Translations under genes and position numbers: made by a program
DNA from: a virus
DNA length: 22,737 nucleotides
Reading direction: 5' to 3' (one strand)
Virus record (IMG/VR): IMGVR_UViG_3300037358_000021
Location: 1-22,737 of that record
Notes under the pieces: generated by a model
The model's input: only the letters and a program-made list of their open reading frames with translations
What the model was told of the DNA's origin: nothing
The model's database searches: none
In this document: piece by piece, positions 1,577 through 22,559 of the stretch
How the letters are laid out: the number at the start of each line of letters is the position of its first letter
Position numbering within the stretch: the first letter of the stretch is position 1

Positions 1577-2272
1577 TCAAGATGTTTTCGTTGCCCAATT
1601 ATAAATGTTACTGGGAAAAATTGATTTGTGTTTGATTCGTTCGATTAGGGCAGCGGCTTCTTCAGCTTTCCATTTCTCAAACACTTGCTGATCTTGGATA
1701 CGCTTAGATTCACCCGCTGAATAGGTGATGTCTTTAGGAGCCTTCCCAGCTAGATAATGTTTGTGCTCGGTCATGACGTCATCGCAAAAAACTCTTAGGC
1801 CACATTCACGAGCGAGGAGTTCTTGTACATCATCGTGATACCAATGCCAAAGTCCCGGTAACGCCCACCAACCACACTCCCGAATAAGATCACCACCGAC
1901 GGTCACATAAGAATGAATTCTTTTTTGAGACTGCCATCCTTCGTTGCCATGAGAAATTTTCCATCCACCAGCGGCTTCGGACAGCCTCTTTTCCCAATTG
2001 GTTGAGTAAGTGTACTCGTCGTCGCAAATAAGTCCGTAAAACGGTTCATCAGGAAAACGCTTAAAGCACTCATTCATTGCCCCGCAGACACCAATATTTT
2101 CTCGAGAAGAAACTCCATGCCAATTATTAGGCAATTTTATCTTCGCGTATTCATCCATACGATCGCGACCATTAACCCAGAGTAGTCCGGTGCCGGTGCA
2201 GCCTACCTTATTGATCTGGTCAATAACAGCTTGGCATTGCTCGGGACGATTATAGGAGGGAAGGAACCACAT
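1577..2272 (-). CDS. Glycosyltransferase-like protein (GT-A type, phage)
   Basis: 231 residues, ATG start with a GGGAGG Shine-Dalgarno 5 bases upstream. The N-terminus MWFLPSYNRPEQCQ resembles the start of GT2-type glycosyltransferases, where a beta strand followed by S-x-N-R-P opens the nucleotide-sugar fold. An acidic cluster at about residues 82-86 (GLICDDEYTYS) lies where the metal-binding DxD motif is expected, and a second acidic stretch (YHDDVQELLARECGLRVFCDD) follows at about 144-165. It ends 15 bases before the gp10-like gene and follows a methyltransferase by 11 bases. With the two genes further upstream it forms a sugar-modification cassette inside the tail-gene region. Sugar donor and target are unknown; modification of virion protein is an inference. 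It is clearly diverged from the next two glycosyltransferase genes. Confidence 0.6.
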   Translation of the reverse strand: MWFLPSYNRPEQCQAVIDQINKVGCTGTGLLWVNGRDRMDEYAKIKLPNNWHGVSSRENIGVCGAMNECFKRFPDEPFYGLICDDEYTYSTNWEKRLSEAAGGWKISHGNEGWQSQKRIHSYVTVGGDLIRECGWWALPGLWHWYHDDVQELLARECGLRVFCDDVMTEHKHYLAGKAPKDITYSAGESKRIQDQQVFEKWKAEEAAALIERIKHKSIFPSNIYNWATKTS

Positions 2273-2283
2273 AACCGCCTCCC

Positions 2284-2949
2284 TTAATTCTTATGATAGA
2301 TAAATGCATAACCTGACCAACCATAGGTAAACCAGATTTCACACTTAGTTGCGATAGTTTCTAGAAAGGCTCTTCGCTCACCAAAATTATTGGCGGCCTC
2401 ATTATTATTGAAGTCATCGAACAAAACTACGGCACCGTTGCTTAGTAGCGGCGCTGTAGTTTGTAATACTGTCTTCGTTGATTCGTATAAATCACAATCA
2501 ATATGTAGCACAGAAATTGATTGAGGAAGATTCGTAGAGTTTATTAAAGTATCCTGATAGAATCCCTTAATAAACTCTGCTTGATTTGGAATCACTTGTT
2601 GAAGAATGCTGCGAAGATTAGGAAGAGTATTTTCTTCTACCCGACAGTCGCCTTCTTTCCAATGGCCTTCTAGTACTTCTCTACAATTTGCATCTCCGCC
2701 AGAAGGTTTAGGAAATCCTTCCCAGGAATCAAAGAGATACATTTTACGTTTATCTGAATATTCACGAAGGATCTTGGCAAAAATAGAAGCGGTTAGTCCG
2801 CGATACGTTCCGAATTCAGCGATATCGCCCTTGATGTTACAGAATCGCGTGTATTCAATTATTCTCCGGAACGGCTCGGAATAAATTTCGATCATCCGTT
2901 GCGGACTCATCCCAGGTGGAATATCAAATTGTATCTGGGCAGTGCTCAT
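2284..2949 (-). CDS. TylF/MycF-like SAM-dependent methyltransferase
   Basis: 221 residues from the ATG that overlaps the upstream stop as ATGA. An upstream in-frame start at 3009 exists but would overlap the previous gene by 64 bases, so the coupled start is preferred. The sequence has the marks of the macrocin O-methyltransferase (TylF) family of class I methyltransferases: a SAM-binding segment GDIAEFGTYRGLTA near residues 41-54, YLFDSWEGFPKP near 71-82, the strand VLHIDCDLYEST near 148-159, and VVLFDDFNN near 174-182. The paired acidic residues in the last two segments match the metal-binding aspartates of TylF and MycF. Family members often methylate sugar hydroxyls, which fits the flanking glycosyltransferase genes. 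The actual substrate is not visible. It may instead act on a small molecule or a host glycan. Confidence 0.75.
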   Translation of the reverse strand: MSTAQIQFDIPPGMSPQRMIEIYSEPFRRIIEYTRFCNIKGDIAEFGTYRGLTASIFAKILREYSDKRKMYLFDSWEGFPKPSGGDANCREVLEGHWKEGDCRVEENTLPNLRSILQQVIPNQAEFIKGFYQDTLINSTNLPQSISVLHIDCDLYESTKTVLQTTAPLLSNGAVVLFDDFNNNEAANNFGERRAFLETIATKCEIWFTYGWSGYAFIYHKN

Positions 2950-3572
2950 TTTATATAATACGTATGAGAACCAAGGTGGCCAATTTGCATGGAAAGTTCC
3001 ATGTCGCACAAGGATTCATATCCGGCTTTGCGGGTGGTCTCACACCAATACTCATCTTCTTGCATTATCTCGTCGCTGTCGGGCTTTGTCGGATCCATCA
3101 TCCAACGGGGAGGATCAGCAAAGTATGGTTTGCGAAGTTTCTCAAAGACTTCCATTTTAGTTAAATGAAAGGGAAATCCTACGAGTCTCATGGGCACAAG
3201 TTTCTGGTAGGGCTGCAATGCGTTGCGATCCATCGGTTCCGCCACAGGGCTACGATCAATCCCAGCGCGGCGACTCGTGGTGGCGCAGACAATAGGCTTA
3301 TCGTGAGCAAGAAGAGGTTCTAATGCGGAAGGGGCGAAAATACTATCTGCATCAATTTGCAGTAAGTGCGTTGCCTGAAATTCTTTGGCCTTTTCTACTA
3401 ACATATTCCGGTTACGAGAAATCACGGAACCAACTGCCTGAACTTTACCCACTTGAATTCCGACGCGAGTAGAATGTGCCAATAATTCCCACAAGCAATT
3501 CTGGAAATGGACATTAGTGTATTCCGGTTGCGGAATACCAACACAAACACGAATTCCGGTATAATCAGGCAA
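2946..3572 (-). CDS. GT-A glycosyltransferase-like protein
   Basis: 208 residues. The start is TTG at 3572, chosen because an AAGGA Shine-Dalgarno lies 7 bases upstream and no ATG is close. Recognisable elements are RNRNMLVEKA near residue 54, the DxD-type metal motif in LLQIDADSIF near 71-80, MRLVGFPFHLTKMEVF near 127-142, an acidic EDEYWC segment near 172, and a C-terminal IGHLGSHTYYIK. The order matches phage glycosyltransferases in which DxD holds the metal and sugar nucleotide. It is a paralog of the gene just upstream (same RNRN/FNRN, DxD, FADPPR/FAEPPR, EDEY and IGH blocks). The two are separated by three bases, so a tandem duplication is likely. The stop overlaps the following methyltransferase start. 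Donor sugar and acceptor are unknown. Confidence 0.68.
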   Translation of the reverse strand: MPDYTGIRVCVGIPQPEYTNVHFQNCLWELLAHSTRVGIQVGKVQAVGSVISRNRNMLVEKAKEFQATHLLQIDADSIFAPSALEPLLAHDKPIVCATTSRRAGIDRSPVAEPMDRNALQPYQKLVPMRLVGFPFHLTKMEVFEKLRKPYFADPPRWMMDPTKPDSDEIMQEDEYWCETTRKAGYESLCDMELSMQIGHLGSHTYYIK

Positions 3573-3575
3573 ATT

Positions 3576-4244
3576 CTATTCCTTAGTCGGTTTCATTATG
3601 TTGAAAGTCTTAGCACCACGGTGGCCAATATTGGTAGAAAGATTTATATCACAATAAACATCGTAGCCTGCCTCAATCGCGCGAAAGCAGAAATATTCAT
3701 CCTCGGGCATAAGGCTTCCGGTGTCGTCAACTTCCATCATTGCTCTCGGAGGCTCGGCGAACCAAGGCTTCGTGAGTTTGCGAAATACATCCATCTTAAT
3801 AAGCATGAACGGCATGCCCAAAAGGCGCATCTTCACGGGGGGCGAAGGAATCTGGAGCCTGGAACCGTCTAACGTATCGCCAATCGCACTATCTTGTTCA
3901 TCATCGCGTTTAGAGGCCGTTGCTCCAACGATGTCAAGATTATGTGCAATGAGCACATCACCCGCCCAAGGGGGGAAGATCATGTCTGAATCGATGAACA
4001 AAATATGAGTCGCCGTTGTTTTAAGGGCGAGCTCAACTAAAAGATTCCGGTTAAATGCAATTCGACAACTGGACGTATTTATCATATTGCAAATATGATA
4101 CGAACCATTTTGACTCTTATGGTTCAAAAGGCTCATCACAAAATTAACGTTGACGAATTCGCCAGAAGGGAATACTACCGCTACACGGGGGATTTGATTT
4201 TCCGATGCAGCTGGGACAAGCGGTATTGTTTCAATCAACAACAC
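3576..4244 (-). CDS. GT-A glycosyltransferase-like protein, paralog of the next gene downstream
   Basis: 222 residues. The nominal start is GTG at 4244, but no convincing Shine-Dalgarno precedes it, and the paralog begins about 17 residues later, so the true start could be internal. The core shows FNRNLLVELALKTTATH, a DxD motif in ILFIDSDMIFPP near residue 82-93, MRLLGMPFMLIKMDVF, WFAEPPRAMM, PEDEYFCFRAIEAGYD and a C-terminal NIGHRGAKTF. These blocks align one for one with the gene at 2946-3572. The protein probably binds a nucleotide sugar through the DxD and a divalent metal. It lies 37 bases after the tandem virion-protein pair, which makes those proteins possible glycosylation targets, but that is inference from position only. 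Confidence 0.68.
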   Translation of the reverse strand: MLLIETIPLVPAASENQIPRVAVVFPSGEFVNVNFVMSLLNHKSQNGSYHICNMINTSSCRIAFNRNLLVELALKTTATHILFIDSDMIFPPWAGDVLIAHNLDIVGATASKRDDEQDSAIGDTLDGSRLQIPSPPVKMRLLGMPFMLIKMDVFRKLTKPWFAEPPRAMMEVDDTGSLMPEDEYFCFRAIEAGYDVYCDINLSTNIGHRGAKTFNIMKPTKE

Positions 4245-4281: not shown

Positions 4282-5007
4282 TTAATTTACGCCGAAGATG
4301 CTGTAATTATAAGTTGAAGTGTCATTAGCAGTTCCCACAACGGTGAAGTAGACACCAGCCGATATTGTAGTTAGGTGAGGCTGCGCACCGACCGCACTTT
4401 GGGCGGTGTTAAGACTAATCGCCACAGTATCAGTAATCGCAATTGTGGTATTAGTCACCGTTACGGCAGTTGCACCGTTCAGGTTGAATGTGCCTGCGCG
4501 GCCTGCGCCGGTTGCGCTTGCCTTTTGGACAAAGCCTGTGCCGACCAAAGTTTCAGTGATATTGCCGGCAAAGCTGCCAGCCACACCTACATCGCCCGTA
4601 AACCATGCACCGCCTTTGGCAGAATTAAATAAGGCACTTGCTCCCACTGGGAGAGCAAGGGCGGTGGATCCCGCAACGCCGTTAATTGTATCCGAGCTAC
4701 CCTGTGCTCCATAAATGGATAAAGAATTTGCGCCATTATTTATAACTATCGTAAATTGATAGGGAACATTTGGACCTCCCGTAGAAAGCGGAAGATTAAC
4801 TCCCGTGCTGGCAGTCACCGTGTCAACTTCATTATAAACAGAATTTAACTGAGTGGCCGTTGCCTGGGTTGTGCCTGCGGCCACAATTCCATAAGTTGAA
4901 GAAGAATTATTCATGTTATAAATGGAACTGGCAATCTGTGCGGCATCAGCAAGACGAAATGAGGGATCGAGCTTAATGAGTGGATTTGGCTTAGTTGTGG
5001 CAACCAT
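4282..5007 (-). CDS. Beta-rich virion protein, tandem paralog (decoration or fibre type)
   Basis: 241 residues, ATG with GGAG 9 bases upstream. Composition is rich in Ala, Gly, Ser, Thr and Asn with few charged residues, typical of extended beta-structured phage surface proteins. It shares long blocks with the gene directly upstream: GIVAAGTTQATATQLNS near residue 39, ASTGVNLP near 67, a GNITET segment near 148, a TNTT.AITD strand and a terminal ISAGVYFTVVGTA...YNY..GVN. The two genes are one base apart. Neither has a known catalytic motif. Position between the gp4-like adaptor and gp10-like hub suggests a head decoration or tail component. I cannot assign a precise role. Confidence 0.6.
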   Translation of the reverse strand: MVATTKPNPLIKLDPSFRLADAAQIASSIYNMNNSSSTYGIVAAGTTQATATQLNSVYNEVDTVTASTGVNLPLSTGGPNVPYQFTIVINNGANSLSIYGAQGSSDTINGVAGSTALALPVGASALFNSAKGGAWFTGDVGVAGSFAGNITETLVGTGFVQKASATGAGRAGTFNLNGATAVTVTNTTIAITDTVAISLNTAQSAVGAQPHLTTISAGVYFTVVGTANDTSTYNYSIFGVN

Positions 5008-5008
5008 A

Positions 5009-5761
5009 TTAATTTACTCCAATCATTGTGTAGTTATAGAGAGAAGTATCACTGGCAGTTCCCACCACTGTGAAGTAGACACCAGCAGATATTGTCGAAA
5101 CGTGGGGAACCGCACCAACAGTACCAGAGGGGGTATTAACGCTGAACCCGATAAAGTCTGTAATCGCCACCGTTGTATTAGTGACCGTCACCGCTGTTGC
5201 TCCATTAAGAGTGAAAGATCCAGCCCTCGCAGTTCCTGCGCCAGACTTCTGAACGAAGCCAGAACCGACAGTTGTTTCTGTGATATTTCCAGCAGCACCA
5301 ATAGTAGTTGCAGTTAGTGCACCAAAGGCAGCAGCTGCACCAGCACCTGTGGGACTAAACCATGCGCCAACTTTGGTAGTAAAGTACATGACGCTCGAAC
5401 CCGCTGCCTGTGTAACACCAGTTGCGCCAGCCGTTCCATTAATAGTATCGCTCTGACTTTGAGCAGAATAAACAGTCAACGTATTCGCACCATTATTTGT
5501 GACAAAGCAAAATTGGCAAGGAGTAGAATGCTTTCCGCCCGAATAGGGGAGATTGACACCAGTGCTCGCGGCAACTGTGTCAACCTGATTGAGCAAGGAA
5601 TTTAATTGAGTGGCAGTCGCCTGAGTAGTCCCAGCGGCAACGATACCGTAAGTAGAAAGGCCGGAATTCATGTATAAAAGTCCGTTGCGGATATAGCCCA
5701 TATCTGCAAGGCGGTAGCCGCCATCACTCGGTGCAAGTTCAATTGGTTTAGTGGTCGACAT
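5009..5761 (-). CDS. Beta-rich virion protein, first of a tandem paralog pair
   Basis: 250 residues, ATG preceded by AGGAG at 8 bases. It is Ala/Gly/Ser/Thr-rich with short beta-prone strands and no enzyme motif. Its N-terminus (IELAPSDGGYRLADMGYIRN) and C-terminus (SAGVYFTVVGTASDTSLYNY) match the downstream neighbour closely, while a segment around residues 130-155 (GAGAAAAFGALTATTIGAAG) is longer here. The pair probably arose by duplication and then drifted. The C-terminal ISAGVYFTVVGTA pattern resembles phage structural proteins annotated only as hypothetical. A decoration or fibre role is inferred from composition and context. Confidence 0.6.
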   Translation of the reverse strand: MSTTKPIELAPSDGGYRLADMGYIRNGLLYMNSGLSTYGIVAAGTTQATATQLNSLLNQVDTVAASTGVNLPYSGGKHSTPCQFCFVTNNGANTLTVYSAQSQSDTINGTAGATGVTQAAGSSVMYFTTKVGAWFSPTGAGAAAAFGALTATTIGAAGNITETTVGSGFVQKSGAGTARAGSFTLNGATAVTVTNTTVAITDFIGFSVNTPSGTVGAVPHVSTISAGVYFTVVGTASDTSLYNYTMIGVN

Positions 5762-9009: not shown

Positions 9010-9900
9010 ATGCCTCAAGTCATAGACAGTGATGAATATAATGTTGCTGGTGTGTACACTGTAACACAAAAAGCCTCTGGTCGAACATATGTTGGAGAAG
9101 CATTCAACATAAGAGAAAGATGGATGAATGGACATATCGGTTGTCTTAATGACAACAGACATGGCAATCGCTTCCTACAACGCGCCTGGAACAAGTATGG
9201 CCCAGATGCATTTGAATTCAAAATATTTACAGTTGTTGAAAATACTGAAAATTTATCCAAATATCTTTTTAAGAAAAAATTAAAATGGCATGAAAATGAA
9301 GTTCTTAAACTTTTTCCTAAAAATTATAATCTGGAAATTCCAGGAGAAAATGGCTATGTTATTCCAGGACCACGTGCCAAAAGAATGATGAAGAAAGCTG
9401 CTAAGAGAGAACGCAATACAGAGATAGGTAGGGCAAGAATGAAAAGAGTTCGTCTAGAAGCTATGAAAAACCCAATAGCAGTGGCACGCCATAAGAAAGC
9501 TACAAAAGAGGCGTGGCAAAATCCAGAAATTAAAGCTGCCAGGGTAGCCGCCTATAATACTCCAGAAGGTAAAAAGAATCGTGCTAGTGGGGCGGCGCTA
9601 GGATGGATTAAACGAAAAGAAAAACTCGCTAATGATCCTGAATTCGCGGCCAGACATAAGGAGAGTAGAGCGAAGGCAAACAAAAAAATTAAAGAACTCT
9701 ACAATACCCCTGAACGCAAAAATATGCTTTCTAAACAAGCAGACGAAACTTGGGCAGTTCCTGGAAGGAAAGGAAAAGTCACAGAATCTCTAGAAGAGTA
9801 TTATTCTGATCCTAAAAATAGAACACGGCATTCTAAGATAATGCTTGAACATTTTGAAAAGAAAAAATCTAGGAAACTTTCCATCCCGGGAGATCTTTAA
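9010..9900 (+). CDS. GIY-YIG homing endonuclease, free-standing, opposite strand to capsid
   Basis: 296 residues, ATG with AAGGA 9 bases upstream. The N-terminal GIY-YIG nuclease domain shows GVYTV at residues 14-18, YVG at 27-29 and the catalytic-type arginine R37 eight residues later, as in I-TevI. A WNKYGPDAFEF segment near 60-70, the candidate metal-binding glutamate in KWHENEVLKLF and the NYNLEIPGENGY segment complete the domain. Residues of about 150-280 hold about six diverged repeats with an N/D-x-P-E/x...A...W pattern (for example NTPEGKKNRASGAALGW and NTPERKNMLSKQADETW), probably DNA-binding modules like NUMOD3. It is the only convincing plus-strand gene, AT-richer than its neighbours, which suggests transfer. 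It starts 134 bases from capsid exon 1, divergently, and its 3' end overlaps the next minus gene by 32 bases. Confidence 0.85.
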   Translation: MPQVIDSDEYNVAGVYTVTQKASGRTYVGEAFNIRERWMNGHIGCLNDNRHGNRFLQRAWNKYGPDAFEFKIFTVVENTENLSKYLFKKKLKWHENEVLKLFPKNYNLEIPGENGYVIPGPRAKRMMKKAAKRERNTEIGRARMKRVRLEAMKNPIAVARHKKATKEAWQNPEIKAARVAAYNTPEGKKNRASGAALGWIKRKEKLANDPEFAARHKESRAKANKKIKELYNTPERKNMLSKQADETWAVPGRKGKVTESLEEYYSDPKNRTRHSKIMLEHFEKKKSRKLSIPGDL

Positions 9901-10217: not shown

Positions 10218-10292
10218 TGGTAGCCGAGGATCGAATTGCACGATCGACCTTCTGGTTATGAGCCAGACGAGATACTACTTCTCCACTCGGCA
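10218..10292 (-). tRNA. tRNA-Met (anticodon CAT), CCA encoded
   Basis: A full 75-base cloverleaf fits: acceptor TGCCGAG/CTCGGCT (six pairs; the first position is T opposite T), D stem GAGA/TCTC, anticodon stem TCTGG/CCAGA with loop CTCATAA, T stem GATCG/CGATC with loop TGCAATT, then A73 and genomic CCA. Oddities: the D loop is short and lacks the usual GG, and position 55 of the T loop is G in place of T. If the host modifies C34 to lysidine it would read Ile codons; the sequence alone does not decide. Confidence 0.8.
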
Positions 10293-10453: not shown

Positions 10454-10484
10454 AGGGCAGAACAATCATGTTCTATCACGCCCT
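10454..10484 (-). other. Stem-loop overlapping the scaffold stop codon
   Basis: AGGGC/GCCCT forms an outer stem and GAACA/TGTTC an inner stem with a 4-base loop. The structure begins within the scaffold stop region. There is no long U tract on either side, so transcript stabilisation or tRNA-operon processing is as likely as termination. The remaining bases up to 10379 hold no gene that I can see. Confidence 0.35.
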
Positions 10485-11420
10485 CTTATACCGATTCCTT
10501 TTTTCTTCCAACTGACGCTGACGTTCAGTGACCCAATCGCTCATCTTTGTGGCTGAGTCAGTGAGATCCGGAATGCCCGCTTTCGACGCACCACCAGCGA
10601 CAGGAATCACCGGAGCCGGAGCCTGAGAAACAGGAGCCGGAGGGGGCGCGGGCGGCGCATTAAGTGCAGCTTCTACACGCGCTAATTCCATTGCTCTCTT
10701 GACGGGAGTCATTTTAACAAGTTTCTCAGCTTCTTCAAAGTTCTGACCGAGATGATGGAGGATCTTTGAGGGATTTTTAAGTTCGACTACGGTTTCCAGA
10801 AATTCTGAAGATACGTTTTTACCTAATGCGCCGACGAGGTTAAGGTTCTTAATCGCCTCATCCCATGACTGAACGCCGTAGTCTTTTTTGCCAACCTCGA
10901 CAATTTCATTGCAAGTTTTATTAAACTCATTTGCCTGGGCGATCAGGATTGCTTTTTCCGCTGCGCGTTTTTCAATTTCCGCTTCCGTCACTTCCGTTGT
11001 GCTCATCGGAGGCGTAGATCCATTTGTCCCAGGAGCGCCGGAGGCTTTGGTCTCAAGTTGCTTGAGCAATTCAGCAGTGCGAGCTTCAGCAGCTTTTAAC
11101 GCTGCATCTTTTTGATCAGCCGTGCGCTCAGCTTCTAAACGGCGATAGGTTAATTCATTTATGCGCTTTTGGACATTGTCCACTTTGGGCTTTTCGCCAG
11201 CCGCAGCCGGTGGCGTCTCCGCAGTCGTCGTTGGTGGCGTACCATCTCCGGATGTATTACCTTCTGTCGTCGCTGCTGCTCCAGTTCCGGAGGTCGCAGA
11301 TATCGATCCATCTGCATTGACGACAACGCCAACCGTAGCGGAGCCATCAGAATTAGTAGAAGCCACCGGCGAAGCAACTGTGGGCGACGGCGTACCGGGA
11401 TCGACAACGGGATCAGTCAT
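10476..11420 (-). CDS. Capsid scaffolding protein
   Basis: 314 residues from ATG at 11420, chosen because GGAG lies 9 bases upstream. A low-complexity Thr/Ala/Pro/Gly-rich N-terminus (about 1-75) is followed by a long charged helix (VQKRINELTYRRLEAERTAD and onward to about 125), a helical middle (about 145-245) and an Ala/Pro linker (about 250-275). The C-terminus, DWVTERQRQLEEKRNRYKRA, is strongly basic and helical, like the coat-binding helix-turn-helix of P22 gp8-type scaffolds. Length, composition and position between portal and coat all fit. Scaffold directs shell assembly and then leaves the procapsid. The leader carries the 25-base hairpin repeat (11442-11466). I see no protease motif. 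Confidence 0.8.
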   Translation of the reverse strand: MTDPVVDPGTPSPTVASPVASTNSDGSATVGVVVNADGSISATSGTGAAATTEGNTSGDGTPPTTTAETPPAAAGEKPKVDNVQKRINELTYRRLEAERTADQKDAALKAAEARTAELLKQLETKASGAPGTNGSTPPMSTTEVTEAEIEKRAAEKAILIAQANEFNKTCNEIVEVGKKDYGVQSWDEAIKNLNLVGALGKNVSSEFLETVVELKNPSKILHHLGQNFEEAEKLVKMTPVKRAMELARVEAALNAPPAPPPAPVSQAPAPVIPVAGGASKAGIPDLTDSATKMSDWVTERQRQLEEKRNRYKRA

Positions 11421-11441
11421 AGAATAATACTCCAAAAGAAT

Positions 11442-11575: not shown

Positions 11576-11599
11576 AAACATCAAAATAATTTGATGTTT
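11576..11599 (-). terminator. AT-rich palindromic hairpin after the small-gene array
   Basis: AAACATCAAA and TTTGATGTTT form a perfect 10-bp stem with a 4-base loop directly at the stop codon of the gene at 11598. On the minus strand the sequence continues CCATTTTTGCCC. Low GC makes it a weak terminator. A second stem, GCCGAG/CTCGGC, lies between 11536 and 11562, so the 177-base gap before the scaffold holds three hairpins and probably sets scaffold expression apart. Confidence 0.4.
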
Positions 11600-11759
11600 A
11601 CTTTTTCTTATTCTTCTGCTGATCCTGATACACCGGATCTTTTGACTTTTTCAAATCTTCTTCAAGACGTTCATTCATTTCTTTAAATCTACGATCAACA
11701 TCTTCTTCGCGCTTCTTCACATCACCGCGTGTTTCACCCTTTTCCCAATAGTGATTCAT
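11598..11759 (-). CDS. Small charged protein with C-terminal DPVYxxQQKNK tail
   Basis: 53 residues, ATG at 11759. It starts MNHYWEKGETRGDVKKREED, continues as one charged helix (VDRRFKEMNERLEEDLKK) and ends SKDPVYQDQQKNK plus two lysines. The tail is the second of two signatures that recur in this array (DP-x-Y-x-x-x-Q/S-K-x-K). It is the last gene of the array before the scaffold. No catalytic motif or membrane segment is seen. The helix could form a coiled coil. The function is unknown; position and shared tail suggest an accessory head protein. Confidence 0.6.
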   Translation of the reverse strand: MNHYWEKGETRGDVKKREEDVDRRFKEMNERLEEDLKKSKDPVYQDQQKNKKK

Positions 11760-11819
11760 GCTCACTCATCATCTCCATCACTATCGTTGCATTATTCCAT
11801 ATAAGAATACGCGGGGCAG

Positions 11820-12062
11820 TTATTTATTCTTCTGTTGATCTGAATAATAGGGATCTTTCGACTCTGCCATTTTGTGGCCGGGGGATTCGTGTTCTTTTAA
11901 TCCTTCAGGAAAACTATCTTCGACAAATCCTCTTATATTTCTTACCCCAGAATATTTATGATGAGTAGCACTCTTTTCATGCGACACTTCTGGGTAGTGC
12001 TTTAGGAGCTCATGATTATCTTCATCTGAGATAGTTTTATGAGGAACCGAAAATTCTTTCAT
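11820..12062 (-). CDS. Small protein with both shared tail motifs (KEHESPG and DPYYSDQQKNK)
   Basis: 80 residues, ATG at 12062. The body (MKEFSVPHKTISDEDNHELL, then HYPEVSHEKSATHHKYSG) is His-rich and unlike its neighbours. The C-terminus combines EGLKEHESPGHKMAESK with DPYYSDQQKNK, so both signatures of the array occur in tandem, as also in the gene at 14858-15046. It follows a broken copy of the gene at 12643, whose residual frame ends at 12064 just before this start. No known domain is recognised. Confidence 0.6.
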   Translation of the reverse strand: MKEFSVPHKTISDEDNHELLKHYPEVSHEKSATHHKYSGVRNIRGFVEDSFPEGLKEHESPGHKMAESKDPYYSDQQKNK

Positions 12063-12065
12063 ATC

Positions 12066-12149
12066 AATTAATCCTCATTGTTGACATACCCAGTTGTTCG
12101 GCGGTTTTGCCTTCGATTGCTTGAGCGGCGACACGTCTGTCGATATTCC
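12066..12149 (-). repeat. 84-base direct repeat, copy A (remnant of the 12643 gene)
   Basis: It matches 12645-12728 with a single mismatch. In the frame of the parent gene it reads NIDRRVAAQAIEGKTAEQLG and ends ATGAGGATTAATTGA, corresponding to the parent C-terminus, but that frame has no start codon upstream. It is the scar of a duplication or of a recombination that removed the rest of the gene copy. Confidence 0.85.
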
Positions 12150-12197
12150 AATACCGTGTGGGCGAAGATCGCTTTGGACATCTTTGAGGGTTTTCAT
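12075..12197 (-). CDS. 40-residue ORF crossing the repeat in another frame (doubtful gene)
   Basis: ATG at 12197 follows the preceding TAA directly. The first 17 codons (MKTLKDVQSDLRPHGIG) look like a genuine N-terminus, but from 12149 on the frame runs through the duplicated 84-base segment in a register different from the parent gene, giving an unlikely basic, Pro-rich end. It may be a truncated gene whose 3' part was replaced by the repeat. Whether it is still translated is open. Confidence 0.3.
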   Translation of the reverse strand: MKTLKDVQSDLRPHGIGISTDVSPLKQSKAKPPNNWVCQQ

Positions 12198-12353
12198 TTA
12201 TTTATTCTTCTGACTATCGTTATACACCGGATCCATCGACCCTGCACCTTTTTCGCGTGCGCTTGCGGCTAATGCTTCGCGAGCAGCCTTCGCCTGTTCA
12301 ACAGCGGAAGAGTGCTTGATTATGAGGCCGAGAAGGGGAGAGGGTTTGGTCAT
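12198..12353 (-). CDS. Small protein ending DPVYNDSQKNK
   Basis: 51 residues, ATG at 12353 overlapping the upstream stop as ATGA, so translation is probably coupled. It begins MTKPSPLLGLIIKHSSAVEQ, has an Ala-rich helix (AKAAREALAASAREKGAG), and ends SMDPVYNDSQKNK, the second shared tail of the array. The stretch before the tail (helix, then G-x-G/GKGS, then x-DP) resembles the endings of the genes at 14252 and 15048 (AEELRxxGKGSxDPxY). No function is recognised. Confidence 0.6.
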   Translation of the reverse strand: MTKPSPLLGLIIKHSSAVEQAKAAREALAASAREKGAGSMDPVYNDSQKNK

Positions 12354-12589
12354 TTGTTCGGCTTTCCATCGTTACCAGCCCAATAAGGATGTTCATGTTC
12401 CTTATACGGACGATCACGAGGTGACTTTTCTCTCACATGAAAGTTGTCATCTTTATATTTCTTGGCTAATTTTGCGGAAGCAAGATTAGCATCAATTGTA
12501 TTAGAATGCTCAGAAAAATGACCTGGAGACATTCCGCCGCCGTCTCTCATTGCGTATGCATGATCAACTACATATCTAGTGTTACTCAT
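12350..12589 (-). CDS. Small phage protein with KEHEHPYW segment
   Basis: 79 residues, ATG with AGAGG 6 bases upstream. The sequence includes VVDHAYAMRDGGGMSPGHFS near residues 7-26, a helix NLASAKLAKKYKDDNFHVRE near 35-54, and a tail PYKEHEHPYWAGNDGKPNK, an apparent variant of the KEHQKPEW tag with a short extension. It follows a small hairpin with a run of nine C at 12623-12631. It is soluble, with no transmembrane segment. Function unknown. Confidence 0.58.
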   Translation of the reverse strand: MSNTRYVVDHAYAMRDGGGMSPGHFSEHSNTIDANLASAKLAKKYKDDNFHVREKSPRDRPYKEHEHPYWAGNDGKPNK

Positions 12590-12642
12590 AAATTACCTCT
12601 AATAGTGTATGGGGGTATTATGCCCCCCCCCATGAGGAGCCT

Positions 12643-12990
12643 TTAATTAATACTCATTGTTGACATACCCAGTTGTTCGGCGGTTTTGCCTTCGATTGCT
12701 TGAGCGGCGACACGTCTGTCGATATTCCCCGGCGCACTGGCATGTTTGAGCAGTGCATCGAATATTTGTTCTTTTTCCCATTCAGGCGTGGTCGACATTC
12801 CCAGCATGCGGGACAATGTGAGTCGGGCTGATTCTACAAAGTGGTGCCACTCACGACGAATGAACTTTTTCTGGCTTGGATAAAACTTATAGAAAGTGTC
12901 ATCATGCGCGGCCTCTTCATAAAAACACGCAGCCATTTCCTTTGCAGTTTCAGCAAGGAGAACATGGGTGAATTTTTGATTAGTGCTCAT
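12643..12990 (-). CDS. Unknown 115-residue phage protein of the head module
   Basis: ATG at 12990 overlaps the stop of the preceding gene as ATGA; the longer TTG start at 13005 is rejected. The protein is helical: KFTHVLLAETAKEMAACFYE near residues 6-25, FYPSQKKFIRREWHHFVESA near 37-56, and a C-terminal AAQAIEGKTAEQLGMSTMSIN. The pattern of Tyr-Pro-Ser followed by a basic helix with REWxxFVxxAR resembles conserved hypothetical proteins near phage head genes, but I cannot name a role. Its last 76 bases recur exactly at 12074-12149. It has neither shared C-terminal tag, which sets it apart from most of the array. Confidence 0.62.
   Translation of the reverse strand: MSTNQKFTHVLLAETAKEMAACFYEEAAHDDTFYKFYPSQKKFIRREWHHFVESARLTLSRMLGMSTTPEWEKEQIFDALLKHASAPGNIDRRVAAQAIEGKTAEQLGMSTMSIN
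12645..12728 (-). repeat. 84-base direct repeat, copy B (3' end of an intact gene)
   Basis: Matches 12066-12149 with one mismatch. Recombination between the two copies would delete 579 bases holding the small genes at 12075, 12198 and 12350. Confidence 0.85.
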
Positions 12991-13337
12991 ATATTCGATG
13001 CCCAAGTTAGAATGGAATAATAAAATTTAGGAAGCGGACTGATTTCAATGTAGAATTCATTTCCTTGCGAAGCTGCAGCTTGGAGGGTGTATTGTTGAGC
13101 ATCCTTCACGGAAGAAAATGCATAGGTGCTGTTGGCGTTGATTAGCGCATCCACCTGATACATCGCGGCACCAGAACCATCGGGCGCGGTTCCTGCAAAT
13201 GACTTACTGAAATAAGTCATAGGAAACTGAACATTGTTCACGCCGCTTGTGTTACTGGCATTTATCTGCGCGTTAATCTGGGCTTGCGCCGGTGCGTTGA
13301 ATGTTTGCGTGGGGTAGACGGAGGTTTGGTTGATCAT
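12987..13337 (-). CDS. Virion-associated protein, paralog of the preceding gene
   Basis: 116 residues, ATG at 13337 four bases after the upstream stop. The N-terminal half is Asn/Gln/Ala-rich (FNAPAQAQINAQINASNTSG). The second half carries GTAPDGSGAAMYQVDALINA near residues 48-67 and a KDAQQYTLQAAASQGNEFY segment near 78-96. These align with GAAPDSSGKTMIQFEALVNN and KDAQVALLGVAESWGFANY of the upstream gene, so the two are tandem paralogs. They are low in charge, like beta-structured virion proteins. No fold is assigned with certainty. Confidence 0.58.
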   Translation of the reverse strand: MINQTSVYPTQTFNAPAQAQINAQINASNTSGVNNVQFPMTYFSKSFAGTAPDGSGAAMYQVDALINANSTYAFSSVKDAQQYTLQAAASQGNEFYIEISPLPKFYYSILTWASNI

Positions 13338-13341
13338 TTTT

Positions 13342-13728
13342 CTACCAGGCTAATATTGCACAATTGGCGGAGGTTGTATTAGTGGATAAGGCATAGTTGG
13401 CAAATCCCCAAGATTCTGCAACACCCAGGAGAGCCACCTGGGCATCTTTCTGAGTAGGATATCCTGTAGCAGTGTTATTGACTAGGGCTTCAAACTGAAT
13501 CATCGTTTTGCCAGAACTATCAGGAGCCGCACCTGCGTTTACCTGAATATTAATTCTAGGAGTAGTGGAATTCAAGATCTGCGTACCATTACCGATGACC
13601 GTATTAGTGCCAGCTGCAACATTCGTTGTAATAGTGGATGTAGACACCGCAAGGCCGCTCGGAGTATAAAGTACAGCCGGATTGATTGACACAACATTGC
13701 CGCTTCCGCTTCCTACGCCTAGTGTCAT
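13342..13728 (-). CDS. Virion-associated protein, first of a tandem pair
   Basis: 128 residues, ATG at 13728 one base after the upstream TGA. A Ser/Thr/Val/Asn-rich N-terminal region (about 1-60, for example GVGSGSGNVVSINPAVLYTP) is followed by RINIQVNAGAAPDSSGKTMI near 58-77 and a KDAQVALLG helix near 94. It ends TTSANCAILAW without the shared basic tag. It is a clear paralog of the next gene, with a longer N-terminal beta region. The role is probably structural, by composition and context only. Confidence 0.58.
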   Translation of the reverse strand: MTLGVGSGSGNVVSINPAVLYTPSGLAVSTSTITTNVAAGTNTVIGNGTQILNSTTPRINIQVNAGAAPDSSGKTMIQFEALVNNTATGYPTQKDAQVALLGVAESWGFANYALSTNTTSANCAILAW

Positions 13729-13729
13729 G

Positions 13730-14002
13730 TCAGCCGCCCCATTCTGGTTTCTGGTGTTCTTTTATAGAATATTGTCCAGATTTATATCCGCGAGCTTCAG
13801 CATATTCTCTGGCGTCTTTTTCTGATTTAAATTTTCCACGATTTGTGTATGATCCCCCACCTTGTGAATCAGTATGAAGTTCATGATTAAATGATTCTTC
13901 GGCACGCTCAGCGCGAGTAGGAAACCCAGCAGCTTTACGCCTCTTGTCCAATTCTCTTTCTATATTTTCTGTTGAGTCAACAGGATAAATTAAATCACTC
14001 AT
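13730..14002 (-). CDS. Small protein ending in the KEHQKPEWGG tag
   Basis: 90 residues, ATG at 14002 five bases downstream of the previous stop. It includes a charged helix (ENIERELDKRRKAAGFPTRA near residues 13-32) and a compact C-terminal unit GKFKSEKDAREYAEARGYKS near 56-75 that looks like a small alpha/beta module of the SPOR-like kind (inference). It closes with QYSIKEHQKPEWGG. The tag codons are nearly identical in DNA to those of the genes at 14007 and 15268. No signal peptide is seen. Role unknown; the shared tag suggests a common partner. Confidence 0.6.
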   Translation of the reverse strand: MSDLIYPVDSTENIERELDKRRKAAGFPTRAERAEESFNHELHTDSQGGGSYTNRGKFKSEKDAREYAEARGYKSGQYSIKEHQKPEWGG

Positions 14003-14006
14003 CTAC

Positions 14007-14246
14007 TTATCCACCCCATTCTGGTTTTTGGTGTTCTTTGATAAAATCAGCGCCAAGAGGTTTTGAATTATGTTCATCCTCACGCGCCTGATGTTCTTTC
14101 ATTTGACGCTTGGCCTCTTTATACAATTTCTCATTTACTGGAACACCGGCCCAAGCAGACTTGGCGTTTGATTTTTCCTCAGGTGTTTTAGCATTTTGAT
14201 TTGCTCGAAGAACAGATTTTATATGGCCAAGATGATCATATGACAT
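14007..14246 (-). CDS. Small helical protein ending in the KEHQKPEWGG tag
   Basis: 79 residues, ATG at 14246 five bases after the upstream stop. The body is helical and charged (HIKSVLRANQNAKTPEEKSN near 8-27, LYKEAKRQMKEHQAREDEHN near 41-60), and an internal MKEHQ precedes the final DFIKEHQKPEWGG. The last 28 coding bases are identical to those of the gene at 15268, while the bodies are unrelated. This points to exchange of tags by recombination. Function unknown. Confidence 0.6.
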   Translation of the reverse strand: MSYDHLGHIKSVLRANQNAKTPEEKSNAKSAWAGVPVNEKLYKEAKRQMKEHQAREDEHNSKPLGADFIKEHQKPEWGG

Positions 14247-14251
14247 ATGTG

Positions 14252-14491
14252 CTACTTCACCTTCCTACAATCGCCATACTTCGGATCCACGCTTCCTTTT
14301 CCACCCAAGCGCAATTCTTCTGCGGCCAGGTGCGCAGGATCACGTTCGCGCGATTCTCCAGAAAGAATCTTGCCGGTTTCTTTATAGTTCTCATTCAGCG
14401 GTGTGCGCGAATACTTATCGTTATCATGGGAATATGCGAGACCTTCTGGGGCATCCGTCATCTCGGTGAGCGCATTAGGATTCTGAGTCAT
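14252..14491 (-). CDS. Small protein ending GKGSVDPKYGDCRKVK
   Basis: 79 residues, ATG at 14491 five bases after the upstream stop. It starts MTQNPNALTEMTDAPEGLAY, has a polar centre, then AAEELRLGGKGSVDPKYGD. The ending matches AAEELRHEGKGSSDPMYNNS of the gene at 15048 and more loosely the DPxYxxQQKNK tails. It is therefore a divergent form of the second shared tail, with the helix before it conserved too. No catalytic motif is visible. Confidence 0.58.
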   Translation of the reverse strand: MTQNPNALTEMTDAPEGLAYSHDNDKYSRTPLNENYKETGKILSGESRERDPAHLAAEELRLGGKGSVDPKYGDCRKVK

Positions 14492-14496
14492 ATATT

Positions 14497-14709
14497 TTAT
14501 TTCTTTTTCATATTTTCTAATGCATTATTGTACCCTCTATGATACTCGGGATGAAATTTTTCACCTGTTTCTTCTGTGTAATCCTTGGGATCCCAAGGAT
14601 TACCTGGATCTTGCCTAGCTCCCGTTCGATATCCTTTTTTATATTCCCGCTGGTACTCAGATTTTTCATGTTCTTTCTGCTGCCACTCAGGCTTTTCATG
14701 TTCTTTCAT
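14497..14709 (-). CDS. RMF/CrpP-like small protein with duplicated KEHEKPEW tag at its N-terminus
   Basis: 70 residues, ATG at 14709 sharing one base with the upstream stop (TAATG). Unlike its relatives the tag stands at the start and twice: MKEHEKPEW then QKEHEKSEY. The rest has the pattern YxxGYxTGxxxDPGNPWDP followed by a second HPEYHRGYNNA, which resembles the Rmf/CrpP type of small proteins (paired aromatic-x-x-Gly-aromatic motifs around an Asn-Pro-Trp core). Family members bind ribosomes or modify antibiotics; for phage copies no role is established that I know of. The resemblance is by eye. Confidence 0.5.
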   Translation of the reverse strand: MKEHEKPEWQQKEHEKSEYQREYKKGYRTGARQDPGNPWDPKDYTEETGEKFHPEYHRGYNNALENMKKK

Positions 14710-14858
14710 TAGTCTTCTCCAATTCTCTCGTTATAGTTTTTATCATCCTGAACAACCTGTTCAGGCGAACGTGTCTCTGCCCCTGGGAATCCACAATATT
14801 TACAAGGTGTAAAATCCCATTGACTTTCGCAAGCATCGCAACGTGAACAGCGTGCCAT
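14709..14858 (-). CDS. 49-residue zinc-ribbon protein
   Basis: ATG at 14858 overlaps the upstream TAA by one base, and the stop shares a base with the next ATG. Cysteines at positions 4, 7, 10, 19 and 22 give CxxC...CxxC knuckles (MARCSRCDACESQWDFTPCK, then YCGFPG), consistent with one bound zinc. The C-terminal half (about 27-49) is acidic and probably flexible. Such ribbons often mediate protein or nucleic-acid contacts. It has neither shared tag. Confidence 0.62.
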   Translation of the reverse strand: MARCSRCDACESQWDFTPCKYCGFPGAETRSPEQVVQDDKNYNERIGED

Positions 14859-15046
14859 TATTTATTCTTCTGTTGATGCCTATAATAAGGATCCTCTGAT
14901 TTCTGATGTTCTTTTAATCCACTGTAAAATTCTTTAGTCATTTTATCAAGGCCTTCTACTTTAGTGCCTTTATCGGGAAGAGAATTTCTTTTACTTTTTG
15001 CTAATTCCTCATCAAACCATTTTCCATAATCTGCCCTATTTCCCAT
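14858..15046 (-). CDS. Small protein ending in the fused tag KEHQKSEDPYYRHQQKNK
   Basis: 62 residues. ATG at 15046 is chosen because it lies one base after the upstream TGA; a longer frame to 15217 would be fully buried in the previous gene. The body is DYGKWFDEELAKSKRNSLPD and KVEGLDKMTKEFYSG. The ending joins both array signatures without a linker: KEHQKSE directly followed by DPYYRHQQKNK. This makes it the best evidence that the two tails belong to one functional system. No other domain is recognised. Confidence 0.6.
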   Translation of the reverse strand: MGNRADYGKWFDEELAKSKRNSLPDKGTKVEGLDKMTKEFYSGLKEHQKSEDPYYRHQQKNK

Positions 15047-15047
15047 A

Positions 15048-15266
15048 TCATTTATCCTTCTTACTATTGTTATACATCGGATCACTTGATCCCTTCCCCT
15101 CATGGCGAAGTTCTTCGGCAGCGGCGACGATTTTGGATTGTTGGGTGGTGGAGGGTTTGCGACCTTCATACTTAAAGGTCTCAAGTGGATCGCCACTTTT
15201 ATTTTTTGTTGCCTCAAAATGTTTTTGATATGCTTTATATTCGTGCCTTGTTTTAAACATCGTCAT
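15048..15266 (-). CDS. Small basic protein ending GKGSSDPMYNNSKKDK
   Basis: 72 residues from ATG at 15266, five bases after a GGTGG site and overlapping the previous gene only at its stop region; a GTG at 15275 is also possible. It reads MTMFKTRHEYKAYQKHFEAT, a Lys/Thr-rich middle, then IVAAAEELRHEGKGSSDPMY. The ending is the second shared tail in a variant closest to the gene at 14252. Soluble; role unknown. Confidence 0.58.
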   Translation of the reverse strand: MTMFKTRHEYKAYQKHFEATKNKSGDPLETFKYEGRKPSTTQQSKIVAAAEELRHEGKGSSDPMYNNSKKDK

Positions 15267-15267
15267 A

Positions 15268-15468
15268 TCATCCACCCCATTCTGGTTTTTGGTGTTCTTG
15301 AATATGCTCGCGTCTTATTTTTCTCGTAGTTGCATCTTGATTCTCCGCATATTCGCGACGCTTCTTTTTATTTTCCTCGGAATTAATACCATCAGAATCA
15401 TATTTGCCCATTGAATTGTCATTGTAGAGTTTTGTATTTATTTTGTTCATCGGAATTGGTTTTGACAT
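15268..15468 (-). CDS. Small charged protein ending in the KEHQKPEWGG-type tag
   Basis: 66 residues, ATG at 15468 one base after the stop of a 22-codon ORF. It starts MSKPIPMNKINTKLYNDNSM and has a strongly charged helix EENKKKRREYAENQDATTRK near 31-50 before the final EHIQEHQKPEWGG. The final 28 coding bases are identical to the tag of the gene at 14007. Together with the 22-codon ORF it opens the array downstream of the portal. No domain is recognised. Confidence 0.6.
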   Translation of the reverse strand: MSKPIPMNKINTKLYNDNSMGKYDSDGINSEENKKKRREYAENQDATTRKIRREHIQEHQKPEWGG

Positions 15469-15589: not shown

Positions 15590-17806
15590 TTATTGTCCAG
15601 GTCCAGCGCCCACAGTCGGTCCCGCGCCAACCTCTGGTCCTGGCTGATTTTTAGCAGCGCCCGGAGAAGGTGATTGACTGCCTTCCGTCGCGGTGGGCGT
15701 TTGACCACCTGGATTTTCTGGCACATTTTCGTCTTCCGCAAGTTCGCCAGCGGAGGCCGCTTCTACCGGCGCGAGGGAGGCTTTATGTTCCTCTTTCATG
15801 AGGTCATGCAGCATCATCGCAGTATCTTTAGGATTGATCTGTTCTTTGATCAGCACAGAGATGCGCTTCGTGATCGCTTCGTAAACATCGATATCTTTTT
15901 GTTGGTCTTTGGCCTTCAACCGGAGACGTTCCTCACCAAGTTCCTGTGCCATTGTCGCAAGCATCTTCTGCGTCTGGACTAATTGCATTTGCAATTCCTG
16001 AACAGCCGGAGGAATACCTTCACCCTTCGCCTGTGGCGGAACCATACGTTCGAGACGCTCAGCAATTTCCATCGCCATCGGGAAGTCAGCGGCTTTGAAA
16101 AGTAAGTCGCCGATCACCGCACCCCACTGAGGAGCACTTGTCAATATTTGCGTGATGGCATTAAATGCTTCTTGACGACGAGTAGCATACGCCGGTCCAA
16201 CATCAGCTTCTACATCATAGCGACCAATATTGGGGTTGAAAATTCCCGCAATGATATCTGTTTCTTCAGCCTTGTGTTCTTGGAACGCGGCATTCGCCTT
16301 CGGATCCAATTGAACATGCTTCTCTTCACCATCTTCGCCCATAATGCGAAGAATACGAGGTGTGTCATATATCTTGGGAATCAAATCAATTAGAATCTTC
16401 CCAGTGCCGCGAATGGCGATGGCAAGATTGTCGATAAAATGATAGGTGCTATTGTCGCCCTTACGTTGACGTTCCTGAATCGCGACGCCACTTCTTTCAT
16501 TGGACTTCTCGCCGAAGTTCGCCTCAACTTGTCCACTCACCATCTGCATTTCTGTCTGGGCGAGTTTCAATCCCTCAATGTACGCAGTCGCCATAACAGG
16601 CGGCGCAGCGCGTTCCGGCGCGGGAATTGGATTCCCATCATCGTCAACTGAATTATATGGCAGTACGGAATGATTTACTGTATTCGCAGTTTCCCAGTAG
16701 CCTTCAAGATTTTCGATTGCTTTTGCAGGTGCAATGAAGGGAGTTTTACTTTGGAGGGCGACGTGTTCGACAGCGCTGCTGCTCCAATAATTATACATCC
16801 GTTGTGGATCACGGAGTGCTCTGGTGTGGCCTTTGCGGTCAAGTTCTCCATTAATGATTGTTTCTTCACCGATCACCCTCATAATAGGAATATATTCGCC
16901 AGCCCAGTCGCGGCGTTCGGCGATTTCATCGCCAATGATCAAGTACCATTCAACTTTCCAAGTATTGATCTCACGCACTTTAGTGGAGGGATTATCGATG
17001 ACTTGATCGATAATCTCTTTAGGAATTCTCCCGGCCTTGATCATCTGCGCTTGACCAGTGCGTGGATCAGTGAACGAAATTAGTTTATCCGTATCCGGCA
17101 CGCGACGATAATATTCTGCGATGCGAACATGTTCTTTATCAACCCAACCGTCGGCATTTCCTAGCGCAGCACGCGCCCATCTATCACGGAACTTCGGATA
17201 AGCCACACGGAATTCATCCTTCGGCATATCATCAAAGATAAAACCAAACCTGGCATCGAGACCGTCGACCTCATTTATATCTGGGTCGATGAACACCGTG
17301 AGAGGATCTTTTATCCTGCGGATAAAAATTTCCTGGTCGAAGTTATCGTTGCCCAGGTAATCCGTGACTACGCGCCAATACCCGATTCCGCCAGCCACCT
17401 GAAAAGAAGTGGCAGTGTCGTAGGCGACTGTGGCATTGCTGATATATTCTATATGACGAAATATGCCCTCATAAACTTGAGATGCTTCATAGGTCGCACC
17501 GTTCCCAACAGGATTGACTTTGCAACGTGGCTTATTCTGTTTGCAGTCATTGATGATCTGCAAATTATGTTGACGCGTTTTATTAATGGTGAGACAGGGA
17601 CGCTCGTCGATATCACGATTACGCCGAACTTCATTCGGCCATTGATAGCCGTTGTCGGAATCCGCATTCGCGAACTTTATATCTTCGAGAAATAACTTCC
17701 GTGCGCGACTTTCCCACTCTTCACATTGCTTGAATCGACGTTTAGCTTCCGCGATAATTTTATCATCGCCTGTGAGTAGCTCCTCACTCGCAATATCGTT
17801 CGCCAT
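15590..17806 (-). CDS. Portal protein, P22 gp1-like
   Basis: 738 residues, close to the 725 of P22 gp1. ATG at 17806 shares a base with the preceding stop (TAATG). Characteristic segments: an N-terminal acidic/basic helix with AKRRFKQCEEWESRARKLFL near residues 21-40, WPNEVRRNRDIDERPCLTIN near 56-75 followed by KTRQHNLQIINDCKQNKP, IKDPLTVFIDPDINEVDGLD near 165-184, a long helical stem region (about 420-560), and a coiled-coil segment around 600-650 (VQELQMQLVQTQKMLATMAQ). The last 60 residues are Pro/Gly/Ala-rich. The dodecameric ring at one capsid vertex is the DNA entry channel and binds terminase, the gp4-like adaptor and scaffold. Position between terminase and scaffold agrees. Confidence 0.92.
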   Translation of the reverse strand: MANDIASEELLTGDDKIIAEAKRRFKQCEEWESRARKLFLEDIKFANADSDNGYQWPNEVRRNRDIDERPCLTINKTRQHNLQIINDCKQNKPRCKVNPVGNGATYEASQVYEGIFRHIEYISNATVAYDTATSFQVAGGIGYWRVVTDYLGNDNFDQEIFIRRIKDPLTVFIDPDINEVDGLDARFGFIFDDMPKDEFRVAYPKFRDRWARAALGNADGWVDKEHVRIAEYYRRVPDTDKLISFTDPRTGQAQMIKAGRIPKEIIDQVIDNPSTKVREINTWKVEWYLIIGDEIAERRDWAGEYIPIMRVIGEETIINGELDRKGHTRALRDPQRMYNYWSSSAVEHVALQSKTPFIAPAKAIENLEGYWETANTVNHSVLPYNSVDDDGNPIPAPERAAPPVMATAYIEGLKLAQTEMQMVSGQVEANFGEKSNERSGVAIQERQRKGDNSTYHFIDNLAIAIRGTGKILIDLIPKIYDTPRILRIMGEDGEEKHVQLDPKANAAFQEHKAEETDIIAGIFNPNIGRYDVEADVGPAYATRRQEAFNAITQILTSAPQWGAVIGDLLFKAADFPMAMEIAERLERMVPPQAKGEGIPPAVQELQMQLVQTQKMLATMAQELGEERLRLKAKDQQKDIDVYEAITKRISVLIKEQINPKDTAMMLHDLMKEEHKASLAPVEAASAGELAEDENVPENPGGQTPTATEGSQSPSPGAAKNQPGPEVGAGPTVGAGPGQ

Positions 17807-21920: not shown

Positions 21921-22559
21921 TTAGGCACTCAAAATTCCTCTTCGCTTATCCCACCAAAGTTGAACGGCAATCTTATTGTTAGCCTTACGCTCAGGAGTAT
22001 GCTTCACCCCTGCGAGTTTTGCACTTATACTTTTCTTCTTTTCTTCAGAACAAGGCTGCCCCATTAAAGCAGCACTAATCTTCGCCTTTGTTTCTTCTTT
22101 ACAAGGACAACCCTTATGAACTAAACTTAATTTTAAAAGAGTTTCCGGAGATGCTTTCTTCCCTTTTCTTGCCCTCACTGAATTAGCAATACATTGGGGA
22201 GAAGGTTTTCTGCCTTTGAGCGTTCTTCCTACTTTTTCAGCAACACTTTTTGTCGACATGGGGCTAACTTCACCGCCATTTGTAATATTATAGCCATATC
22301 GTCGATCTTGCGTCCTGTACTTAGCAATCGCGGCTATCTCCAAATTAGCAATATAGGATCTTTCCCCTGCAACAAGAATTTCTAGCTTAACATTTTCTGC
22401 ACCGTATTTTCGAATCGCATTATAGACAGAAATTTTATATTTTCCAGAAGAAACTTTACAGTGTGCTCTAAATCTTCCCTTTGGATCATTGCTTATTCCA
22501 AAATACAATTTTCCATTGGGAAACACTAATCGGTATAGCCAACAGAGCTTTATTATCAC
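21921..22559 (-). CDS. GIY-YIG homing endonuclease with NUMOD3-type repeats
   Basis: 212 residues. GTG start at 22559 overlaps the upstream stop as GTGA, so it relies on translational coupling. The nuclease domain reads WLYRLVFPNGKLYFG at residues 7-21 with arginine R29 eight residues after the YFG glycine, AIRKYGAENVKLEIL near 49-63, a glutamate in NLEIAAIAKYRT, and YGYNITNGGE. Residues of about 110-195 hold repeated NUMOD3-like units (GRKPSPQCIANSVRARKGKK, then GQPCSEEKKKSISAKLAGVK and HTPERKANNKI), which bind DNA. No intron signature was seen around it, so it appears free-standing. It differs from the plus-strand GIY-YIG gene in domain order and repeats, pointing to separate arrival. Confidence 0.85.
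   Translation of the reverse strand: MIIKLCWLYRLVFPNGKLYFGISNDPKGRFRAHCKVSSGKYKISVYNAIRKYGAENVKLEILVAGERSYIANLEIAAIAKYRTQDRRYGYNITNGGEVSPMSTKSVAEKVGRTLKGRKPSPQCIANSVRARKGKKASPETLLKLSLVHKGCPCKEETKAKISAALMGQPCSEEKKKSISAKLAGVKHTPERKANNKIAVQLWWDKRRGILSA

Follow-up and report, generated by a model that had tools for sequence, protein, structure and literature searches.

The window, i.e., the whole stretch of 22,737 nucleotides analyzed here (IMG/VR record IMGVR_UViG_3300037358_000021), is a 22.7-kb fragment of an uncultivated virus. Its minus strand encodes a P22-like portal protein (phrog_156), a head scaffold (phrog_8865), a coat protein (phrog_283), and a large terminase. With portal, scaffold, and coat (phrog_156, phrog_8865, and phrog_283) all of the P22 type, the region was recognized as a P22-like head module. 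The best matches to the portal in bacterial genomes were on contigs of Dyella (58% identity) and Rhodanobacter (56% identity), and since these contigs carry the closest bacterial portals, the host is probably a proteobacterium.

The interval between the portal and the scaffold contains 16 small minus-strand frames, which are separated by gaps of mostly -4 to 5 nt, a spacing typical of a translationally coupled operon. Eleven of the 16 encode proteins carrying tag A, tag B, or both. Tag A has the form KEH[Q/E]KPEW, with a GG ending in three genes, and tag B is a C-terminal DPxYxxx[Q/K/R]KxK. Interspersed among the tagged genes are the untagged ones, namely a zinc-ribbon-like gene (g4), two paralogues (g9 and g10), a conserved gene (g11), and a doubtful short frame at 12075-12197. 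The features of the interval and its two borders are as follows.

15590-17806, minus strand: portal protein, P22-like (phrog_156), upstream border of the array
15268-15468, minus strand: g1, 66 aa, tag A at the C-terminus (IQEHQKPEWGG)
15048-15266, minus strand: g2, 72 aa, tag B AAEELRHEGKGSSDPMYNNSKKDK
14858-15046, minus strand: g3, 62 aa from an ATG at 15046, tags A and B in tandem KEHQKSEDPYYRHQQKNK
14709-14858, minus strand: g4, 49 aa, cysteine-rich and untagged, zinc-ribbon-like with weak database similarity only
14497-14709, minus strand: g5, 70 aa, tag A twice at the N-terminus KEHEKPEWQQKEHEKSEYQR, ahead of an RMF-like (sub-threshold) body
14252-14491, minus strand: g6, 79 aa, tag B AAEELRLGGKGSVDPKYGDCRKVK
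14007-14246, minus strand: g7, 79 aa, C-terminal tag A and an internal KEHQ segment
13730-14002, minus strand: g8, 90 aa, C-terminal tag A
13342-13728, minus strand: g9, 128 aa, untagged, adjoining its paralogue g10
12987-13337, minus strand: g10, 116 aa, untagged, paralogue of g9
12643-12990, minus strand: g11, 115 aa, untagged, a conserved gene that many relatives also have downstream of the portal
12350-12589, minus strand: g12, 79 aa, variant tag A near the C-terminus KEHEHPYWAGNDGKPNK
12198-12353, minus strand: g13, 51 aa, tag B (DPVYNDSQKNK)
12066-12149, minus strand: 84-nt direct repeat, a 99% copy of the g11 3' end (original at 12645-12728), mostly inside the doubtful frame 12075-12197
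11820-12062, minus strand: g15, 80 aa, variant tag A and tag B KEHESPGHKMAESKDPYYSDQQKNK
11598-11759, minus strand: g16, 53 aa, tag B followed by KK DPVYQDQQKNKKK
10476-11435, minus strand: head scaffolding protein (phrog_8865), downstream border of the array and candidate docking partner

For two of the genes, an internal ATG was the likelier start: the ATG at 15046 in g3, rather than an upstream TTG, and the ATG at 11759 in g16. The 84-nt copy of the g11 3' end is located after g13, with no start evident in the original frame. The body of g5 resembled the Pfam family RMF (ribosome modulation factor) with an E-value of 0.036 and 14.6 bits, under the curated cut-off of 27.9, and g5 had no match among solved structures. 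Single-sequence folds of g8 and g5 reached a pLDDT of only about 62 and were of low confidence. The tagged proteins matched nothing credibly in PHROGs or Pfam and had no recognizable homology to the P22 proteins gp7, gp16, or gp20, no polyvalent-associated domain was identified in the array proteins in scans of Pfam and NCBIfam, and PADLOC returned only a weak partial match.

The canonical tag A (IKEHQKPEWGG or IQEHQKPEWGG) forms the C-terminus of g1, g7, and g8. Variants were observed in g12 (KEHEHPYWAG), where the motif lies nine residues from the end, and in g3 (KEHQKSE) and g15 (KEHESPG), where it precedes tag B. The g5 protein starts with two copies, KEHEKPEWQQ-KEHEKSEYQR, within MKEHEKPEWQQKEHEKSEYQR. 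Tag B was found at the C-termini of g2, g3, g6, g13, g15, and g16, the last with two further lysines. Among these, g2, g6, and g13 share a longer tail of about 24 residues (AAEELRxxGKGSxDPxY), and as this similarity extends beyond tag B, the three may be true paralogues.

The row of tagged miniproteins is a real pattern. In local alignments of the twelve small proteins, 22 pairs scored at least 40, compared to an average of 2.6 and at most 8 over 400 shuffles, and the DNA pattern of tag B occurred five times in the window and 0.00 times in shuffles. When the tails were cut off, only trivial matches between bodies were left; the bodies, which are short, are thus not detectably homologous outside the tags. 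These results bear out a sequence-only reading of the window, which had described about ten small proteins with common tails on different bodies. The genes and tails it listed were all present on the minus strand at the coordinates it gave, including the two genes with both tags in tandem, g3 and g15. Its description of the tags as C-terminal holds for most genes and fails for g5, with its two N-terminal copies of tag A, as well as for the internal and near-end copies elsewhere. No tag-like segment was found in the structural proteins of the window. A resemblance by eye of tag B to the scaffold C-termini of relatives (DP..M...EW...R..Q) was dropped, as local alignment of the tag consensus to the scaffold of the window gave no match.

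The nucleotide differences among tag copies were mostly synonymous in tag A. With five synonymous substitutions and one nonsynonymous substitution, the three C-terminal copies had a pS of 0.53 and a pN of 0.02 (binomial P about 0.0008). Further synonymous differences, at the H, K, P, and E codons, were found in the copy of g5. Hence, the tag A peptide itself looks selected, with counts that are small and all in the same direction. The sequence-only reading would have been undermined by tails that are a mere by-product of DNA repeats, and for tag A at least, this excess of synonymous differences speaks against such an origin. The case for peptide-level selection is weaker for tag B, where little synonymous excess was observed (pS 0.46, pN 0.28) and the codons of D, Y, and the first conserved K (K9) were identical in all six copies.

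The same slot was compared among relatives drawn by their portal, which comprised 80 additional viral loci and the same number from bacterial genomes. In the nearest viral relatives (61-64% identity), a homologue of g11 lies no more than about 100 nt from the portal match, and the array is absent. Of the 118 loci with both a portal and a coat gene, 71 had no frame shorter than 100 aa in between and only four had four or more, compared to 13 in the window; nothing comparable to the array was found in these 118 intervals. Similarly, no pairs of proteins that share a tail on differing bodies scored at least 40 among the 6,697 pairs compared in the 80 bacterial loci, except for full-length paralogues, and the viral and phage loci yielded only one pair, which was again of full-length paralogues. 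Among the loci scanned, such pairs were found in the window only. The same small genes were not found in any of the related phages compared.

Searches for the tags beyond these loci were also negative. In IMG/VR, no match was found for EH[QE]KPEWGG or DPxYxxx[QK]K[ND]K followed by a stop codon, and DPxYxxxQKNK had 13 matches, none of which was C-terminal in a small protein. The looser pattern [KQ]EHxKPEW had two matches in IMG/VR, one of them in a different, glycine-rich protein (locus L010), which was judged to be due to chance. Tag A was absent from about 85,000 bacterial and archaeal genomes, tblastn searches with the small proteins gave nothing credible against phages (12 of 12 queries) or plasmids (10 of 12 queries), and pattern searches of IMG/VR identified no relatives of g4, g8, g12, or g15. 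Among the records searched, the array therefore seems to be confined to this phage, where near-identical records of the window possibly lie outside the searches. A literature search for shared C-terminal tags of small phage proteins, or for cassette boundary sequences, found nothing relevant.

In relatives, the interval between portal and scaffold is a site of accessory genes. Among the larger proteins of this slot, 33 in all, three matched LPD23 and one matched ART-PolyVal. Both are domains of polyvalent proteins, for which packaging and co-injection have been predicted (PMC5512222). Another three of the 33 were pectate-lyase-like and two resembled endosialidase chaperones, and tailspike proteins also occupy the slot in some relatives. 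Tail, surface, or decoration proteins are thus inserted at this site as well, so that position alone does not mean cargo; it favors a role in the virion without proving it.

We tentatively propose, at somewhat less than even confidence, that the tags are docking motifs that load small cargo into the procapsid. In this proposal, the two tags would be short linear motifs fused to unrelated small late proteins, and they would be bound by a component of the head-assembly machinery, most likely the scaffold or its complex with the portal; a single component could recognize both tags, or each tag could have its own. Binding of the tags would allow the small proteins to co-assemble into the procapsid, and their later ejection with the DNA would deliver a mixture of factors for early infection. 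Further proteins could join this set by gaining a tag, e.g., through duplication of a gene 3' end. The partner, the entry into the virion, the ejection, and the functions of the bodies are what we infer; the main grounds for reading the tags as labels are the pattern itself and the excess of synonymous changes in tag A. The N-terminal, internal, and C-terminal positions of tag A and its tandem arrangement fit a docking motif that tolerates different positions, rather than a fold or a degron, and the tight gene overlaps between portal and scaffold are also in favor of cargo. The docking signal suggested by the sequence-only reading thus retains its support from the tails on different bodies, the conservation of tag A, the head-assembly operon, and the polyvalent proteins in the slot (4 of 33), and gives way in one respect, as the signal is not C-terminal only.

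The closest analogy is with phage T4, where a 10-residue N-terminal signal takes divergent small internal proteins into the head (PMC9026906). Like the T4 proteins IPI, IPII, and IPIII with their capsid-targeting sequence (CTS), the array combines a swappable signal of about 10 residues with several small divergent proteins of a tailed phage in a head-assembly context. Unlike the N-terminal CTS, it has two motifs that are C-terminal or internal except in g5, and it is associated with a P22-like head. The T4 CTS is cleaved by a prohead protease of the gp21 type, and no prohead protease was recognized among the scanned proteins of the 22.7-kb fragment. As the position of the tags differs and no processing protease was seen, the array was not classified with the T4 CTS family. 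To our knowledge, the tags have no sequence relationship with the CTS. Additionally, the T4 internal proteins are packaged, whereas packaging of the array products is putative.

A second analogy is with P22, whose portal, scaffold, and coat are of the type encoded in the window. The P22 ejection proteins are thought to co-assemble with the scaffold, and a column of the scaffold has been proposed as their docking site (PMC12005531). Co-assembly with the scaffold and ejection apply to gp7, gp16, and gp20 of P22, whereas for the array products they are a proposal. These three P22 proteins are larger and form a conduit, and we know of no shared tags among them. The polyvalent proteins, represented by four proteins in this slot of relatives, are large multidomain chains; in contrast, the array consists of many separate tiny tagged proteins with no detected polyvalent domain. 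The fullest version of the proposal, in which two position-tolerant labels of a P22-like podovirus, mostly C-terminal and sometimes stacked, load a swappable dozen of unrelated miniproteins into the head for the next host by a code unrelated to that of T4, is the more doubtful one and is put forward as a possibility.

Alternatively, the tags could dock to a partner outside the virion, either a host or a phage protein, and the array would then encode late proteins that modify the host within the producing cell. The evidence for a common linear motif applies equally to such a partner, and the zinc-ribbon-like neighbor and the weakly RMF-like body of g5 fit an action on host machinery. The genes are nevertheless located within the head module rather than in an early region, and we regard this explanation as unlikely.

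A similarly low probability was assigned to the tails being leftovers of duplication, where an ancestral small gene was copied, its bodies diverged or were replaced, and the tails were kept because they belong to a small fold or because the copies are recent, with no function as a label. Some features of the region point this way: the longer tail of g2, g6, and g13 suggests paralogy of that subset, g9 and g10 are paralogous, and the fresh 84-nt duplication (99% identity) of the g11 3' end inside the array is an example of gene-tail copying. Recency alone fails to account for tag A, which has accumulated synonymous changes with its peptide unchanged. No residual similarity was left among the bodies, and tag A moves among N-terminal, internal, and C-terminal sites.

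Least probable, and quite unlikely in our view, is a role at the DNA level, with the repeats at gene ends acting as ribosome-binding or translational-coupling sequences or as homologous boundaries of cassette exchange and the peptides as by-products: the 3' ends of the tags do often supply a Shine-Dalgarno-like stretch for the next ATG (AATGGGGTGG..ATG, AAGAAGGAT..ATG, and AGGAAGGTG..ATG) and tag B does not vary in its D, Y, and K9 codons, yet the cores of the motifs are found 20-30 nt ahead of the start, too far for a Shine-Dalgarno sequence, g15 and g16 carry tag B with the next gene start 60 and 162 nt away, g5 has its tag A copies at the 5' end, the synonymous sites of tag A vary freely, and the DNA similarity ends at about the stop codon. 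An overlap with ribosome-binding sites thus accounts for the last few codons of the tags at most.

If the tags are packaging labels, as tentatively proposed above, they would represent a second, independent solution for loading small effectors into phage heads, and the cargo of unknown phages would become recognizable from sequence. Particles of P22-type viruses already serve as cargo containers. Even with another docking partner, the tags would mark otherwise unrecognizable small proteins as acting together.

Several other features were observed in the relatives and in the window. In a related phage (locus L053, 2643-4265), the portal-scaffold slot holds a different run of small genes, some lysine-rich, with no common tags. 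In L040, L042, L043, and L045, two conserved proteins occupy the slot as a pair, one of about 450-510 aa that is rich in Pro, Gly, Arg, and Met and one of about 190-245 aa. Within the window, two homing-endonuclease-like (GIY-YIG) genes were identified at 9010-9900 on the plus strand and at 21921-22559 on the minus strand, the former on the strand opposite to its neighbors and near a tRNA-Met gene (10218-10292). Downstream of a tail accessory gene, two adjacent genes (4282-5007 and 5009-5761) encode strongly similar proteins of about 245 aa. Finally, the region 1577-4244 encodes a TylF-like methyltransferase and two adjacent paralogous Anp1-like proteins (glycosyltransferase-like, sub-threshold), which were unexpected beside podovirus tail genes.
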